Origin: Magnetospirillum sp.
Lineage (GTDB): Bacteria > Pseudomonadota > Alphaproteobacteria > CACIAM-22H2
Length of the DNA: 64,000 bases
Direction: 5' to 3'
Assembly (NCBI GenBank): GCA_027532905.1
Contig: JAPZUA010000001.1
Location: forward strand, 1,299,950-1,363,949
This document shows positions 38,462-45,804 of the stretch, one piece after another (within the stretch, counting starts at the first letter, position 1; each line of letters begins with the position of its first letter). The notes beneath the pieces are model-generated. The model worked only from the letters and a program-made list of their open reading frames with translations, made no database searches and was not told the DNA's origin. A program made the position numbers and the translations under genes.

Positions 38462-38487
38462 GTAACCTACAGGGCGCTGCTGTCGAA
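38462..38487 (+). promoter_or_regulatory. SigF-type ECF promoter
   Basis: GTAACC (38462-38467), a 16-base spacer, then CGAA (38484-38487). This equals the GTAACC-N16-CGAA promoter I recall for the Caulobacter SigF-NrsF system. The downstream genes are a small Cys protein, an ECF sigma factor and an NrsF-type anti-sigma, so autoregulation is likely. Confidence 0.75.
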
Positions 38488-38547
38488 ACGGAGAGGGTAC
38501 CGACCTCGCAAAAATGCGTGGTTTTCTCGAACGATGGAGAATCCATC

Positions 38548-38724
38548 ATGGAAATCGTCAACGGCGTGCCGTGCTTCAATTGTACGGATGTCGAAAAGGC
38601 CAAAAAGGCGGCCACCGAACTGCCGCCGCGCGAAGCCCCGAGCGCCGTCTTGCGGACATTCGAAACCGCCAATGCGCCGCTCGCACAGGGTCTACGCGGG
38701 ACCCAGGTGAATTTCGGCGCCTGA
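38548..38724 (+). CDS. Small CxxC protein at the head of the SigF-type operon
   Basis: A 58-residue protein with Cys9 and Cys12 in a VPCFNCTDVEKAKK context, no signal peptide and no membrane segment. A GGAG sequence precedes the ATG at 38548. It lies 60 bases after a strong SigF-type promoter and 51 bases before the ECF sigma gene, so it is probably the first gene of the regulon. The CxxC could bind a metal or form a redox disulfide. I recall similar small proteins in other alphaproteobacteria but no named function. Confidence 0.6.
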   Translation: MEIVNGVPCFNCTDVEKAKKAATELPPREAPSAVLRTFETANAPLAQGLRGTQVNFGA

Positions 38725-38775
38725 CCCCGGCGAGGTCGCTGTTTGCGCCGCACAAATATGCCATGGTGCGCAGCG

Positions 38776-39342
38776 ATGGACAGCGATTCGTGGCCCGAAT
38801 TGATGGGACGTGCGCAGGCCGGCGATGCGGCAGCGTATCGGCGATTCCTGTCCGAAGTGCTGCCGTTTTTGCGCATCGTGATCGGCCGGACCGGCATTCC
38901 GTTCGACCAGATCGAAGACGTGGCGCAGGAAACGCTGATCAGCCTGCACGCGATCCGCCACACCTACGATACGGCGCGGCCGATCAAGCCGTGGCTCGTG
39001 GCCGTGGCACGGCGCCGCGCGATCGATTGGCGGCGACGGCGCAATTCGGCAAACCGCCACGAAACGCCGCTCGACGATGCCACGCATGAAACCTTTGCCG
39101 ATCCGCTTGCGAACCGTGACAACGAGAAGTCAGAAGCGGCCGCTTCGATCCGACGCTGGTTGGCGCAATTGCCGGCTGGCCAGCGCCAAGCGGTCGAGTT
39201 GCTGAAGCTGCGAGAGTTGAGTCTGAACGAAGCCGCCGCCGTTTCGGGACAATCCGTCGGCTCTTTGAAGGTTGCGACCCACCGCGCGCTTGCGAGTCTG
39301 CGCAAAATCTGGAAACGCGAAGAAAAAGATCAGGACCGATGA
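38776..39342 (+). CDS. ECF-subfamily RNA polymerase sigma factor (SigF-type)
   Basis: A 188-residue extracytoplasmic-function sigma factor. Region 2 includes QIEDVAQETLISLHAIRHTYD and WLVAVARRRAIDWRRRR; region 4 includes LPAGQRQAVELLKLRELSLNEAAAVSGQSVGSLK, split here at LRELSL. Its TGA overlaps the NrsF-like gene's ATG (ATGA), so the sigma and its anti-sigma are made together. By pairing with an NrsF/DUF1109 protein it belongs to the group that answers oxidative or metal stress in Caulobacter (chromate, cadmium and singlet oxygen have been reported). Confidence 0.92.
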   Translation: MDSDSWPELMGRAQAGDAAAYRRFLSEVLPFLRIVIGRTGIPFDQIEDVAQETLISLHAIRHTYDTARPIKPWLVAVARRRAIDWRRRRNSANRHETPLDDATHETFADPLANRDNEKSEAAASIRRWLAQLPAGQRQAVELLKLRELSLNEAAAVSGQSVGSLKVATHRALASLRKIWKREEKDQDR

Positions 39343-39983
39343 CCCCTACCGACAAACTTATCGCCGCCTTGAGCGAGGCGGTCGCACCCGTCAAGCGCTT
39401 GCCGTCGCCGGAAGTGCGGGCGGGCAAGTGGCTGGCTTTTGCCGTCTGCGTCGTCGGCGCGTTGGTGGCGATGCATGGGGTCCGCGCGGATATTGCCGAG
39501 CGTTTCGCCGACCCGGCCTTCGCCGCGCCCTGGATCGCGTCGGTACTGGTCGGGCTCACGGCTGCGTTTGCCGCCTTCCAGATGTCCGTGCCGGGCAGCA
39601 AGCGCGCCATCGAATTGCTGCCGGTCTTGCCGCTCGGCGTGTGGCTCGGCACGCTCGGGACCGGCTGTGCGGCCGAACTTTCCGAGATCGGCCGTGCCGC
39701 TTTCGGCACGAGCTGGGAATGTTTCAAATTCATCGTGCTGACCAGTTCCGCACTCGGAATTGCAATGGCGCTGATGCTGCGCAAGGCAGCGCCGCTCGCA
39801 CCCTCGCGTACGCTCGCCATGGGTGCTTTGGCGGCGGCGGCCTTCGCCTCCGCCGGGCTCGAGTTGTTCCATCATCTGCAGACGTCGACGATGGTGCTGG
39901 TCTGGCATTTGGGCACGGTCGCGTTCGTGACGTTGGTGGCCCTGCCGCTCGGCCGAAGCACTTTGGGCAAACCGGCCTACTGA
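39339..39983 (+). CDS. NrsF-like anti-sigma factor (DUF1109)
   Basis: A 214-residue membrane protein with six hydrophobic segments (about 30-50, 63-82, 90-108, 130-148, 158-176 and 184-203), matching the DUF1109/NrsF anti-sigma family that holds SigF at the membrane. Cys residues lie near 37, 107 and 128; in NrsF conserved cysteines respond to the signal. Start overlaps the sigma stop. The last 7 bases overlap the convergent esterase gene. Confidence 0.88.
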   Translation: MTPTDKLIAALSEAVAPVKRLPSPEVRAGKWLAFAVCVVGALVAMHGVRADIAERFADPAFAAPWIASVLVGLTAAFAAFQMSVPGSKRAIELLPVLPLGVWLGTLGTGCAAELSEIGRAAFGTSWECFKFIVLTSSALGIAMALMLRKAAPLAPSRTLAMGALAAAAFASAGLELFHHLQTSTMVLVWHLGTVAFVTLVALPLGRSTLGKPAY

Positions 39984-41071: not shown

Positions 41072-41266
41072 ATGACGCCCAGATTCCAAGCAACGCTCGC
41101 CGTTCTCGGCAATGCCCATCCGGTTGTGCGCGATCTGGCGCGCGCACAACGCAGCGGCGATGCGCTCGACGAATTGATCGTCGAAGCGGGCCTCGCCGAA
41201 TTGCCCCCGGCCGAGCGCAACGCGATCGACGAGATCGCGCGCTACATCGCGGCGAAGATGCATTAA
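41072..41266 (+). CDS. Small conserved-looking protein of unknown function
   Basis: A 64-residue product starting MTPRFQATLAVLGNAHPVV with a C-terminal LPPAERNAIDEIARYIAAKM helix. It has the even codon use of a real gene but no family I can name. The start ATG at 41072 is uncertain, with no strong ribosome binding site. It ends on the same bases as the convergent ccoS gene. Confidence 0.45.
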   Translation: MTPRFQATLAVLGNAHPVVRDLARAQRSGDALDELIVEAGLAELPPAERNAIDEIARYIAAKMH

Positions 41267-41433
41267 CGTCGGCGTTTTCGCGGCGGCAGCGGCACGTCGT
41301 CGTCGTAGAGGATACGGTTGGCCGCACCTTCCATATCGTCATACTGGCCGCTGCGCAGCGACCATAAAAACGCCGCCAGCCCTATACCCGCCGCCAGCAG
41401 CGATACAGGGATCAAGATCAACAGCGATTCCAT
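41263..41433 (-). CDS. ccoS: cbb3-type cytochrome oxidase assembly protein CcoS
   Basis: A 56-residue single-pass membrane protein: MESLLILIPVSLLAAGIGLA is the membrane helix, followed by FLWSLRSGQYDDMEGAANRI, the CcoS hallmark (LxSGQ(F/Y)DD). It is needed to insert copper/haem into the oxidase. Its ATG shares bases with the ccoI stop (TAATG). Last gene of ccoGHIS. Confidence 0.92.
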   Translation of the reverse strand: MESLLILIPVSLLAAGIGLAAFLWSLRSGQYDDMEGAANRILYDDDVPLPPRKRRR

Positions 41434-43799
41434 TACGCTTCTCCCTTGGCGCGCGACAGCCGCAGCGCATTGGCGACCACGACCAGCGACGAGCTCGACA
41501 TCAAAGCCGCCGCGATCGGCGGCGTGACCATGCCGAGCATCGCAAGCGGCACGGCGATCGCATTGTAGAGAATCGAAAAGGTGATGTTTTGGCGCATGAG
41601 CCGCTGCGATTGGCGAGCAGCCGCCAGCAGCACGACCACGGCCACGAGCCCGCGCCCTTGGAATACGGCATCGGCCGCAACTTGGGCAACGTCCGTGCCC
41701 GAGGCAGGCGACAAGGATGCAGACGCCACCGCCAAAGCCGGCGCATCGTTGAGACCGTCGCCGACCATGAGCACCTTGCGGCCGGAAGCGGCAAACTGCG
41801 CCAAACGCGCGGCCTTGCCGGCCGGATCGACCCCGCCCTGCCAATCGGCGATGCCAAGCTTGCTTGCAATGTCGCCGACCACTTCCGGTCGATCGCCGGA
41901 CAGCAACGCCACGCCAAAACCCTGTGCCTGCAACACGGCAACGGTCTGCGCCGCGTCGTCGCGCAAGGCATCGTCGAAGGCAAAGCGCACGGCCTTGTCG
42001 TCGCCGGTCGCAAACCATATCTCCGGCCCGTCGGCGGGGCCGGCGAGCGCATCGTCGATGCCGCAATAGACGCGGCTGCCGAGCCGCATGTCGCCGCAGC
42101 TGAGCCCCAGGCCCGGATGTTCGACCACACCTGCCGCCATCGGCTGGTCGGGGCACGCGGCCGCCAAGGCGCGCGCCAGCGGATGGCGCGAGGCCACAGC
42201 CAGGCTCGCCGCCACGGGCAGCAAAGCCGGATCGCGCGTCGGGTCGGCGCGCAGCACAAGCTGGCCTTGCGTGAGCGTGCCGGTCTTGTCGAACACGACC
42301 ATGTCGATATCGGCCAAACGCTCGAGCCCCGTCACGTTTTTGAGCAGAATGCCGCTCTTGAGCAGGCGGCCGGTCGCGACCGTCTGCACGGCCGGCACGG
42401 CCAAGCCCAGCGCGCATGGGCAGGTGACGATCAAGGTCGCCACCGCATAGAGCATTGCAACCTGCCAATCGACGCCGACGCCGAAATGCCAGGCGAGGAA
42501 GGTCGCAAGTGCTGTCGCATGCACGACAGGTGCATAAGCGCGCGTCACGCGCTCGGCTAGCGCCACGTAGCGCCCGCGCGAACGTTCGGCCGCCTCGACA
42601 AGCCGCACGATCTCGGCCAGTAGGGTGCCCTCGCCAGTTGCCGTCGCAACGATGCGCAAGGCAGCCCCGAGATTGACCATGCCCGCAAACACTTGTGCGC
42701 CGGGTGCAACGGCCTGCGGGACGGCCTCGCCGGTGACCAACGCCGCATCGACAAGCGACTGGCCCGATACGACGCGCCCGTCGATGCCAATGCGCTCGCC
42801 CGAGGCCACATAGACGGTCTGGCCGGGTGCGACCGCATCGGCTGCCACGCTGCGCAAGGCACCCGACGCCTCGACGACCGTGACGGGCCGCACCGCCAAA
42901 GCCAGCAGCTGCGTTGCCGTCGCGCGCACTTTGCCGCGCGCGCGCGCATCGAGATAGCGGCCGGCCAGCAGGAAGAACAGCAATGTGAGCGCCGCATCGA
43001 AATACGCATACGGCCCGCCGCGCAGCGTTTCGGACAGGCTCATCGCCGCGGTCATCGTCACGCCCACCGCGATCGGCACGTCCATGTTGAGGCGCTTGGC
43101 GCTTAGAGCGCTCCAAGCCGAGCGGTAGAACGGCAGGCCCGCATAGAAGATGCACGGCAGACCGATCAAGGCCGAGACCCAATGCAGCAGATCCTTGGTC
43201 GCCGGGCCCATATCGACGCCGACCCACACGGCGACCGACAGCATCATCACGTTGCCGGCCCCGAAGCCCGCAACGCCGAGCGCTTTCAAAAGCCGCGTCT
43301 CTTCGATTTCGGCAAGCGTGCCGAGGCAACTCGGATCGTACGGTACGAGCCGGAAACCGAGGCGCGCCACGCGCCCAACAAGTTCGCCCGCCCGTGCGGC
43401 ATCGCCGCGCCATTTGAGCACCATGCGGCCGGTCGAAAGATTGACGCGCGCATCCGCGACATCCGAATCGCGCGCATACACACTTTCGATGAGCCACGCG
43501 CAGGCTGCGCACTGCATCCCGTCGACCATCAGATGCAGCGTGGCCAAACCGTCCGGCGCCAGCTGCACGCGTTGCGCATAATCGAAGTCGGGCGTGGGCT
43601 CGGGCCGCAATTTGCGCGCCTCGGCGCCAAGCGTGCGGCGGCGATAGAATGCCTCGAGACCCAGACCCTGCACGGCCTCATACGCCGCTTCGCAGCCCGT
43701 GCAGCAGAAACGCGCATGCACTTCGACGACCGGGCTTGCGCAATGCAGGCAGGTCGCGGCCTTTGCAGCGATGCCGATCGAGCCGTCGAGAGGCGCCAT
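41433..43799 (-). CDS. ccoI: Copper-exporting P-type ATPase CcoI/FixI of the cbb3 oxidase
   Basis: A 788-residue P1B-type ATPase supplying copper for assembly of CcoN. Order: N-terminal cysteine motif CLHC (17-20) and FCCTGC (32-37), heavy-metal-associated domain with MQCAAC (95-100), eight membrane helices with the CPC motif (Cys460-Pro-Cys462), phosphorylation site DKTGT (Asp504) and GDGLNDAP. The paired CxxC elements at the N-terminus are normal for CcoI. It overlaps ccoS and follows ccoH after 17 bp. The open frame extends upstream through ccoH without meaning. Confidence 0.95.
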   Translation of the reverse strand: MAPLDGSIGIAAKAATCLHCASPVVEVHARFCCTGCEAAYEAVQGLGLEAFYRRRTLGAEARKLRPEPTPDFDYAQRVQLAPDGLATLHLMVDGMQCAACAWLIESVYARDSDVADARVNLSTGRMVLKWRGDAARAGELVGRVARLGFRLVPYDPSCLGTLAEIEETRLLKALGVAGFGAGNVMMLSVAVWVGVDMGPATKDLLHWVSALIGLPCIFYAGLPFYRSAWSALSAKRLNMDVPIAVGVTMTAAMSLSETLRGGPYAYFDAALTLLFFLLAGRYLDARARGKVRATATQLLALAVRPVTVVEASGALRSVAADAVAPGQTVYVASGERIGIDGRVVSGQSLVDAALVTGEAVPQAVAPGAQVFAGMVNLGAALRIVATATGEGTLLAEIVRLVEAAERSRGRYVALAERVTRAYAPVVHATALATFLAWHFGVGVDWQVAMLYAVATLIVTCPCALGLAVPAVQTVATGRLLKSGILLKNVTGLERLADIDMVVFDKTGTLTQGQLVLRADPTRDPALLPVAASLAVASRHPLARALAAACPDQPMAAGVVEHPGLGLSCGDMRLGSRVYCGIDDALAGPADGPEIWFATGDDKAVRFAFDDALRDDAAQTVAVLQAQGFGVALLSGDRPEVVGDIASKLGIADWQGGVDPAGKAARLAQFAASGRKVLMVGDGLNDAPALAVASASLSPASGTDVAQVAADAVFQGRGLVAVVVLLAAARQSQRLMRQNITFSILYNAIAVPLAMLGMVTPPIAAALMSSSSLVVVANALRLSRAKGEA

Positions 43800-43816
43800 G
43801 ATGGCGTGCCGTTCTT

Positions 43817-44293
43817 TCAGCGCACGACGAAACGCTGCGCTTCGTGCGCGCGCGCTTCGCCGCGTGCGGCGGCAACGCGCACTTCCCATTGCCCAGGGGC
43901 AACGAGCTCGACCGGCGCGCGATAAACGCCAGGCGCAACCGCGCCGAACGCAAGCCGCGTATCGGCAATCCCACCCAAGGGGCGAACCAGCGTGCCGGTC
44001 AGCGCCAGATCGTCGAGGGCGGCACCGCTTGCATCGACGATGCGCACTTCGACGGCCTTGTCGACGTAGCGCAGCGCGAATTTCCAGCCGAGCCCGTGCG
44101 CCTTCTCTTCGGCCTGCAAAACTTGGTTGAATTTGCGGCCGCGCTCGGACGGGTTTTCGTAAGCCAAGCCCGGCCAGCTCGCGAGCGCGAAATAGACCAG
44201 CACCACATTGGCTGCCAACACGACCGCGAACATGGCCGGAAAGACGAGCCACAGATAGCGGTTGCGAAGATCGATTGCGGATTGCGTCAGCAT
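43817..44293 (-). CDS. ccoH: CcoH/FixH cytochrome oxidase assembly protein
   Basis: A 158-residue protein with one N-terminal membrane anchor (LWLVFPAMFAVVLAANVVLV, about residues 15-34) and a periplasmic domain containing YENPSERGRKFNQVLQAE, the FixH signature. It assists cbb3 assembly. ATG 44291-44293 lies 11 bp after the ccoG stop. Part of ccoGHIS. Confidence 0.93.
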   Translation of the reverse strand: MLTQSAIDLRNRYLWLVFPAMFAVVLAANVVLVYFALASWPGLAYENPSERGRKFNQVLQAEEKAHGLGWKFALRYVDKAVEVRIVDASGAALDDLALTGTLVRPLGGIADTRLAFGAVAPGVYRAPVELVAPGQWEVRVAAARGEARAHEAQRFVVR

Positions 44294-44304
44294 GGTCTTG
44301 CTCC

Positions 44305-45804
44305 CTATTGCGGCGGGGCGATGAAAACGGTTTCGCGTTCGGCGCTGTCGCGACCGTCGGCGGCGCGCAGCTTGAATTCGATATGCGTCGATTCGTGCTT
44401 CGTGGCCGCACCTTCCGGCAAGGTCACGAACACGCGATAGCTCGCGACCTGGTCGGGCTTTGCCGACAGCACGAGCCTGTCGCCCGCACCGTCGCCACCC
44501 ACCATCGAGAGCCTTGCTCCCGGCAGGTCTTCGAGGGTGAGCGTGTAATCGCGCGCATTGTGGGTCTTGTTCAGCACATGCACCGTGTAGGCGTTGCGTA
44601 CGCTGCCGTCGACGAGGCGCACATACAGCGGATTGCGGTCGCGCTGGACCGTGAGCTCGACCGTGGTTCGCAGCACCACGCCAACGAGCATGATGCTGCC
44701 GACGATCACAAGTAGCAGCGTGTAGAGAACCGTGCGCGCGCGGATCAGGCGGTGGACGGGGGTGCCGCCTTCGGCGCGTGCGCGCTGATTGTCGAGTGTG
44801 TCGAAGCGGATGAGGCTGCGCGGCCGGCCGACCTTGTCCATGACCGCATTGCACGCATCGATGCACAGGCCGCAGCCGATGCACTCAAGCTGCTGGCCGT
44901 CGCGAATATCAATGCCGGTCGGGCATGTGGCGACACAGGCGTTGCAGTCCACACAGTCGCCGCGCCCGACGAACGGGTCCGACCCATCGGCCTTCTTGGC
45001 AAGCCGTCCGCGCGGTTCGCCGCGCCAATCTTCGTAGGTGACGACGTAGGAGCGGTCGTCGAGCATGGCACTTTGAAAGCGCGGCCATGGGCACATATAG
45101 GTGCAGACCTGCTCGCGCGCGAATCCCGCCAACACGTAAGTCGTGGTCGCGAATAGCCCGGCGAAGAAATATTCCGACGCCGAGGCGCGGCCCGTGAACA
45201 GCTCCGCAAGCAAGGTCGGTGCGTCGCCGAAGAACAGAATACAAGCCCCGCCGGTCGCCAGCGACAGCACGATCCAACTCGCATGTTTGGCCGTTCGCTT
45301 AGCGAATTTCCCGAGCGAAGCGGGCGCTGCATCAAGCCGAATGCGCGCGTTGCGGTCGCCCTCGATCCAGCGTTCGACCAGCATGAACAGATCGGTCCAC
45401 ACGGTCTGCGGGCAGGCATAACCGCACCAGATGCGCCCGAACAAGGCGGTCGCCAAAAACAGCCCGAACGCCGCCAGCACCAGGATGCCGGTGAGGAAAT
45501 AGACTTCCTGCGGCCAGATTTCGAGGAAGAAGAAATAGGCGCGTCGGCCCGGCAGATCGATCAAGATCGCCTGGTCGGGGGCGAAGGGGCCGCGATCCCA
45601 GCGCAGCCACGGTGCGATGTAGTAGACAGCAAGGCAGGCGACAAGAACGGCCCATTTGATGTTGCGATAGAGGCCCTGGACGTTTTTGGGATGGACCTTG
45701 ATGCGGCTCGCATAGAGCGGCATCGCCGCCTTCTGCGTCTTGATCGAAACCGCAGAATCGATCTCCGGCGTATGCGCCGGGCCCTCAACCACACCGCCGT
45801 CCAT
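44305..45804 (-). CDS. ccoG: Cytochrome c oxidase accessory protein CcoG/FixG
   Basis: A 499-residue membrane protein with two ferredoxin-type clusters. Cysteine sets CVDCNACVATCP and CIGCGLCIDACN bind two [4Fe-4S] clusters; several membrane helices precede them and GYACPQTVWTDL carries a further conserved cysteine. It reduces copper for the cbb3 enzyme. The ATG at 45804 is used; a GTG nine bases upstream has poorer spacing. Follows ccoP after 31 bp. Confidence 0.95.
   Translation of the reverse strand: MDGGVVEGPAHTPEIDSAVSIKTQKAAMPLYASRIKVHPKNVQGLYRNIKWAVLVACLAVYYIAPWLRWDRGPFAPDQAILIDLPGRRAYFFFLEIWPQEVYFLTGILVLAAFGLFLATALFGRIWCGYACPQTVWTDLFMLVERWIEGDRNARIRLDAAPASLGKFAKRTAKHASWIVLSLATGGACILFFGDAPTLLAELFTGRASASEYFFAGLFATTTYVLAGFAREQVCTYMCPWPRFQSAMLDDRSYVVTYEDWRGEPRGRLAKKADGSDPFVGRGDCVDCNACVATCPTGIDIRDGQQLECIGCGLCIDACNAVMDKVGRPRSLIRFDTLDNQRARAEGGTPVHRLIRARTVLYTLLLVIVGSIMLVGVVLRTTVELTVQRDRNPLYVRLVDGSVRNAYTVHVLNKTHNARDYTLTLEDLPGARLSMVGGDGAGDRLVLSAKPDQVASYRVFVTLPEGAATKHESTHIEFKLRAADGRDSAERETVFIAPPQ

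Follow-up and report, generated by a model that had tools for sequence, protein, structure and literature searches.

The operon described here lies in a window of 64,000 nucleotides (the whole stretch of DNA that was analysed) from Magnetospirillum sp. (assembly GCA_027532905.1, contig JAPZUA010000001.1, positions 1,299,950 to 1,363,949 of the forward strand). It associates a gene for a 58-residue protein carrying a CxxC motif, a gene for an extracytoplasmic function (ECF) sigma factor and nrsF, which encodes a putative membrane anti-sigma factor. With a probability of about 0.66, we read it as an autoregulated stress switch, in which the sigma factor and a variant NrsF would drive a repair response carried by msrA and egtB-egtD, the 58-residue protein being an effector recruited into the operon. 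Sequence comparisons confirm that the operon is real and conserved and support its layout, the conservation of its promoter, the sharing of this promoter with other genes, purifying selection on the small gene and a cysteine swap in NrsF.

The operon and its promoter

An earlier interpretation made without database searches (the sequence-only reading) had noticed the motif GTAACC-N16-CGAA, a 58-residue open reading frame (ORF) with Cys9 and Cys12, an ECF sigma factor gene and an nrsF gene overlapping it by ATGA. All of these are directly readable in the DNA (Table 1), the start of nrsF lying within the stop codon of the sigma gene, and the observation is therefore confirmed. Pfam places both Sigma70_r2 and r4 above cut-off in the sigma factor, and matches the membrane protein to NrsF (PF06532) at 1.6e-26 and 93.8 bits for a gathering cut-off of 26.8. 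The GGAG ribosome-binding site of the small gene lies within a conserved GGAGAATCC stretch 5' of the ORF.

The small gene is present in 10 of the 11 congeneric genomes searched, one of which (G007) is counted although the gene is split across two contig ends. In all 10, sigma and nrsF follow on its 3' side and an exact motif precedes it. Hence, the recurrence of the promoter upstream of homologous cassettes and the conservation of the small frame, on which the sequence-only reading had staked its case, were both found. One congener, G004, keeps sigma and nrsF and has lost both the small ORF and the motif 5' of sigma. For any single gene, an exact motif in the surrounding 300 bp is expected by chance only about 7e-5 times. 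It is because of the position and conservation of the motif, and not of the motif count alone, that the operon goes beyond chance.

Table 1. Features of the sigma-nrsF operon in the window
Feature	Position	Strand	Remarks
SigF/ECF16-type promoter GTAACC-N16-CGAA	38462..38487	+	60 bp 5' of the small ORF
Gene for the 58-residue CxxC protein, first in the operon	38548..38724	+	Cys9/Cys12; no family match
Gene for the ECF sigma factor, 188 residues	38776..39342	+	Sigma70_r2 and r4; sister to the canonical SigF/ECF16 clade in the tree
Gene for the variant NrsF-family anti-sigma factor (predicted), six transmembrane helices	39339..39983	+	PF06532; C110/C128/H178

Genes resembling those for cbb3 oxidase assembly, including a FixI-type copper ATPase, are located at 41263-44411 on the reverse strand, one esterase gene away from the operon. 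Since this order (FixI-type copper ATPase, esterase, nrsF, sigma, small gene) is kept in the three congeners checked, a link of the operon to copper is possible.

A variant NrsF and a predicted repair regulon

NrsF of Caulobacter crescentus has a conserved cysteine pair, C131/C181 (PMC3511200), and OsrA of Bradyrhizobium has the pair C129/C179 (PMC3420878). Such related anti-sigma factors respond to thiophilic or oxidative stress via cysteines (PMC3511200, PMC3420878). In an alignment of 19 proteins, the equivalent of C131 is universal and that of C181 is kept in six, whereas twelve, including the window protein, carry a cysteine at C110 instead and one has neither. The window protein retains the C131 equivalent as C128 and has a histidine in place of C181. 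Furthermore, all 30 relatives found by a subfamily profile carry, without exception, C110, C128 and the histidine at the end of helix 5. The scores of this profile are bimodal, and about 40 of the 387 genomes of the class carry a variant NrsF at ~139 bits or more. The AlphaFold2 model of the protein (mean predicted local distance difference test score, pLDDT, of 84.6) has six long helices of 23-27 residues. C110 sits within helix 3, whereas C128 and H178 occupy the beginning of helix 4 and the end of helix 5, respectively, and the three residues point to the same face. A fold search of the PDB with this model returned nothing significant.

The protein thus exceeds the gathering score of its Pfam family and has the six transmembrane helices in the model, but lacks the C131+C181 pair. 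The comparison indicates that it is not a standard NrsF but a member of a widespread subfamily with invariant C110/C128/H178. Members of this subfamily occur across many alphaproteobacterial families and have the Cys-Cys-His set in place of the sensing cysteine of Caulobacter and Bradyrhizobium. Since the established sensing cysteine is absent and a different set stands instead, the accepted model of NrsF sensing cannot be transferred to these proteins. The sigma factors point the same way: in the tree, those with a C181-type NrsF partner cluster at 99/95 and the window sigma factor falls outside this clade. Two automatic labels in this tree were wrong (L075 is of the C181 type, L152 is not), which leaves the position of the window protein unaffected. 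Hence, the assignment to a SigF/NrsF-type cassette made by the sequence-only reading holds as regards the SigF-type promoter and the ECF/NrsF pair that follows it, but not for the NrsF subfamily.

Other sigma loci have neighbors of their own. Probable secreted proteins rich in NPCA-type cysteine repeats are encoded beside two variant sigma-nrsF pairs (L130:1586-2647 and L131:5314-5604), the motif standing 5' of the NPCA-repeat gene in L131. In L144 and L162, a motif divergent from sigma faces genes for a periplasmic thioredoxin-like protein and a CcdA/DsbD-like membrane protein; among these neighbors, Pfam was applied to the L144 thioredoxin only.

Among the matches to the motif in the genome itself, two stand 5' of msrA and egtB, and egtD lies directly 3' of egtB; the identities of MsrA, EgtB and EgtD are confirmed by Pfam. 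Six congeners have the exact motif at msrA and three have it with one mismatch, while in G004 it is degenerate. The egtB motif is exact in both congeners where egtB was found. In another alphaproteobacterial family, the independent locus L134 (G026:C14:132500-143500) presents in one run a motif, sigma, a canonical nrsF, a second motif, msrA, egtB and egtD. Because the motif is common to msrA and egtB-egtD and because these genes run together in L134, the predicted regulon likely comprises the repair of methionine sulfoxide in proteins and the synthesis of ergothioneine. Regulons of related anti-sigma factors include methionine sulfoxide reductases (PMC3420878, PMC8315932), and the literature searched yielded no report that connects a sigma factor of the NrsF type with ergothioneine synthesis. 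The egtB site provides promoter-level evidence for such a link.

Only footprinted motif sites were taken as regulon members. The use of genome-wide matches as a regulon list was rejected, since these were no more numerous than in the reversed control (11 vs 11). Caulobacter SigF controls bufferin clusters, whose core is an MNIO enzyme (PMC3511200, PMC12452194). A search for this enzyme (PF05114) in nine genomes of the genus found none, and no bufferin clusters of the Caulobacter SigF type were found by it.

In four congeners including G004 (L042, L103, L125 and L104), an exact motif is found within a conserved intergenic space, 36 bp 5' of a 448-codon membrane ORF, which is a candidate further member of the regulon. 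Moreover, in G005 the motif stands 5' of a gene whose product, judged by its sequence, seems to be YHS-domain-like, and a similar protein is encoded 3' of nrsF in G014 (L142). This gene is likewise a candidate target.

The small CxxC protein and competing readings

Between a conserved N-terminus (MEIVNGxPCxxCTDVExAKK) and an equally named conserved tail (RGTQVNFGA), the small protein is variable. In the three closest species, the ratio of non-synonymous to synonymous substitution rates (dN/dS) of its ORF is 0.10-0.27 overall and 0.02-0.04 in codons 1-21, which hold the CxxC, indicating strong purifying selection. It has no match in Pfam, NCBIfam, PDB sequences or plasmids, in agreement with the sequence-only reading, which had called it previously undescribed. 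Relatives were found in other genera and families (5 of the 263 genera sampled). Outside the genus, they adjoin unrelated genes with neither sigma gene nor motif nearby, and the g4 genomes G013 and G017 have the small gene and no NrsF. We name here an undescribed alphaproteobacterial family of small CxxC proteins. Since its sequence has no hydrophobic N-terminal segment, the protein is probably cytoplasmic. The AlphaFold2 model is of low confidence throughout (mean pLDDT 55.6) and shows a short helix following the CxxC.

Two known types of small protein were considered and rejected: a bufferin, because there is no signal peptide here and no PF05114 protein in the nine genomes of the genus searched, and a methionine-rich scavenger of the MrpX/BcrX type (MXKDX repeats), because there is one methionine in the 58 residues. 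In another family, L165 (oriented, ~627-830) shows a motif followed by a non-homologous 39-codon ORF with CRRC and then by sigma and a variant nrsF, which we report as a lead only.

Because G004 lost the small gene yet kept sigma-nrsF, and because homologues exist without sigma genes, the small protein is more likely to have been recruited to the operon of this genus as an effector than to be a core sensor. The sequence-only reading, in which it was an effector or sensor of the regulon, is retained as to the conservation of the gene and of its promoter in the genus. The protein is not specific to the regulon, since its homologues in other genera and families lie far from sigma genes and since G004 has sigma-nrsF without it. 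Overall, the earlier interpretation is partly supported.

In the mechanism that we favor, the variant NrsF would hold the sigma factor at the membrane. On the periplasmic side, C110 and C128, with H178 nearby, might sense an oxidising or thiophilic (metal) stress, which would release the sigma factor. The latter could then read GTAACC-N16-CGAA at its own operon, at msrA and, where present, at egtB-egtD. Consequently to this release, oxidised methionines would be repaired and ergothioneine made. The 58-residue protein would offer its N-terminal CxxC as a thiol or metal ligand on a mostly disordered linker, the RGTQVNFGA tail probably docking on a partner. In this scheme, we infer that NrsF acts as an anti-sigma factor, which signal it answers, what redox or metal chemistry is involved and what the small protein does. 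Several points weigh against this mechanism. It is read from sequence, and the motif is not enriched genome-wide. The egtB site is known from two closely related species only, and the msrA motif site is absent outside the genus. The chemistry and partner of the small protein are guesses given its poor model, and two cysteines alone may be insufficient for a metal unless the protein dimerises.

Other readings give the small protein a different place. It may be a cytoplasmic regulator that binds sigma or the cytoplasmic face of NrsF and tunes release in dependence on redox state or zinc, as a co-anti-sigma factor or a feedback factor. Its first position in a predicted co-transcript with sigma-nrsF, the strong constraint on its CxxC region and its loss together with the promoter in G004 would fit. 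However, sigma and nrsF remain intact in G004, and homologues occur in sigma-free loci or, in G013 and G017, without NrsF, which makes this role unlikely. A two-tier thiol switch, in which NrsF would have a relocated Cys-Cys-His sensor at the periplasmic face and the co-expressed cytoplasmic CxxC protein would report the thiol or metal state of the cytoplasm back to the same sigma factor, seems to us rather doubtful. At the other extreme, the ORF could act as a regulatory leader, through attenuation or translational coupling, its peptide being irrelevant, as its leader position and the ability of the invariant GGAGAATCC to fold as a tiny hairpin at the ribosome-binding site might suggest. This is highly improbable: selection acts at the amino-acid level in codons 1-21 and homologues exist without sigma genes. 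Furthermore, folding does not surpass that of shuffled sequences (z -0.4 to -0.9) and other genes of the genus also have this string before their ATG, so that the hairpin was rejected.

The operon could also represent a standard Caulobacter-like SigF/NrsF regulon that responds to heavy metals (chromate and cadmium) and in which the small gene would be a minor target. The promoter motif and the Pfam family are indeed those of Caulobacter, where dichromate releases SigF (PMC3511200). However, the canonical C181 is missing, the sigma factor lies outside the canonical clade, the genus has no MNIO enzyme in the genomes searched and msrA and egtB-egtD are what was found as targets, so that we consider this reading improbable. 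The recruited effector under a repair-directed switch remains the reading that we prefer.

Comparison with known systems

Like SigF-NrsF of C. crescentus (PMC3511200), the operon encodes an ECF sigma factor with a six-helix partner of the NrsF family second to it, and GTAACC-N16-CGAA is found before the sigma operon and before targets. Unlike it, the NrsF described here has C110/C128/H178 and no C181, the operon is headed by the CxxC gene and the predicted targets are msrA and egtB-egtD instead of DUF692/DUF2282/DUF2063 clusters. EcfF-OsrA of Bradyrhizobium japonicum (ECF16; PMC3420878) is likewise an autoregulated pair of a sigma factor and a DUF1109 anti-sigma factor with methionine sulfoxide reductases in its regulon. 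Its cysteine-dependent release by peroxide is a further likeness, which is here proposed from sequence. It differs by the C129/C179 pair of OsrA, by a slightly different promoter spacing and by the lack of any described small CxxC leader gene.

In Brucella, the ECF16 pair BcrS-AbcS likewise has as neighbors a gene for a small peptide and a system that repairs methionine sulfoxide (BcrX-MsrQ-MsrP; PMC8315932), although the peptide described here differs from BcrX by its single methionine, its CxxC and the lack of a signal peptide. Finally, whereas the genus has no MNIO enzyme in the nine genomes, relatives of the variant NrsF often adjoin bufferin genes bearing the same motif, as in the bufferin clusters that include sigma and NrsF (PMC12452194).
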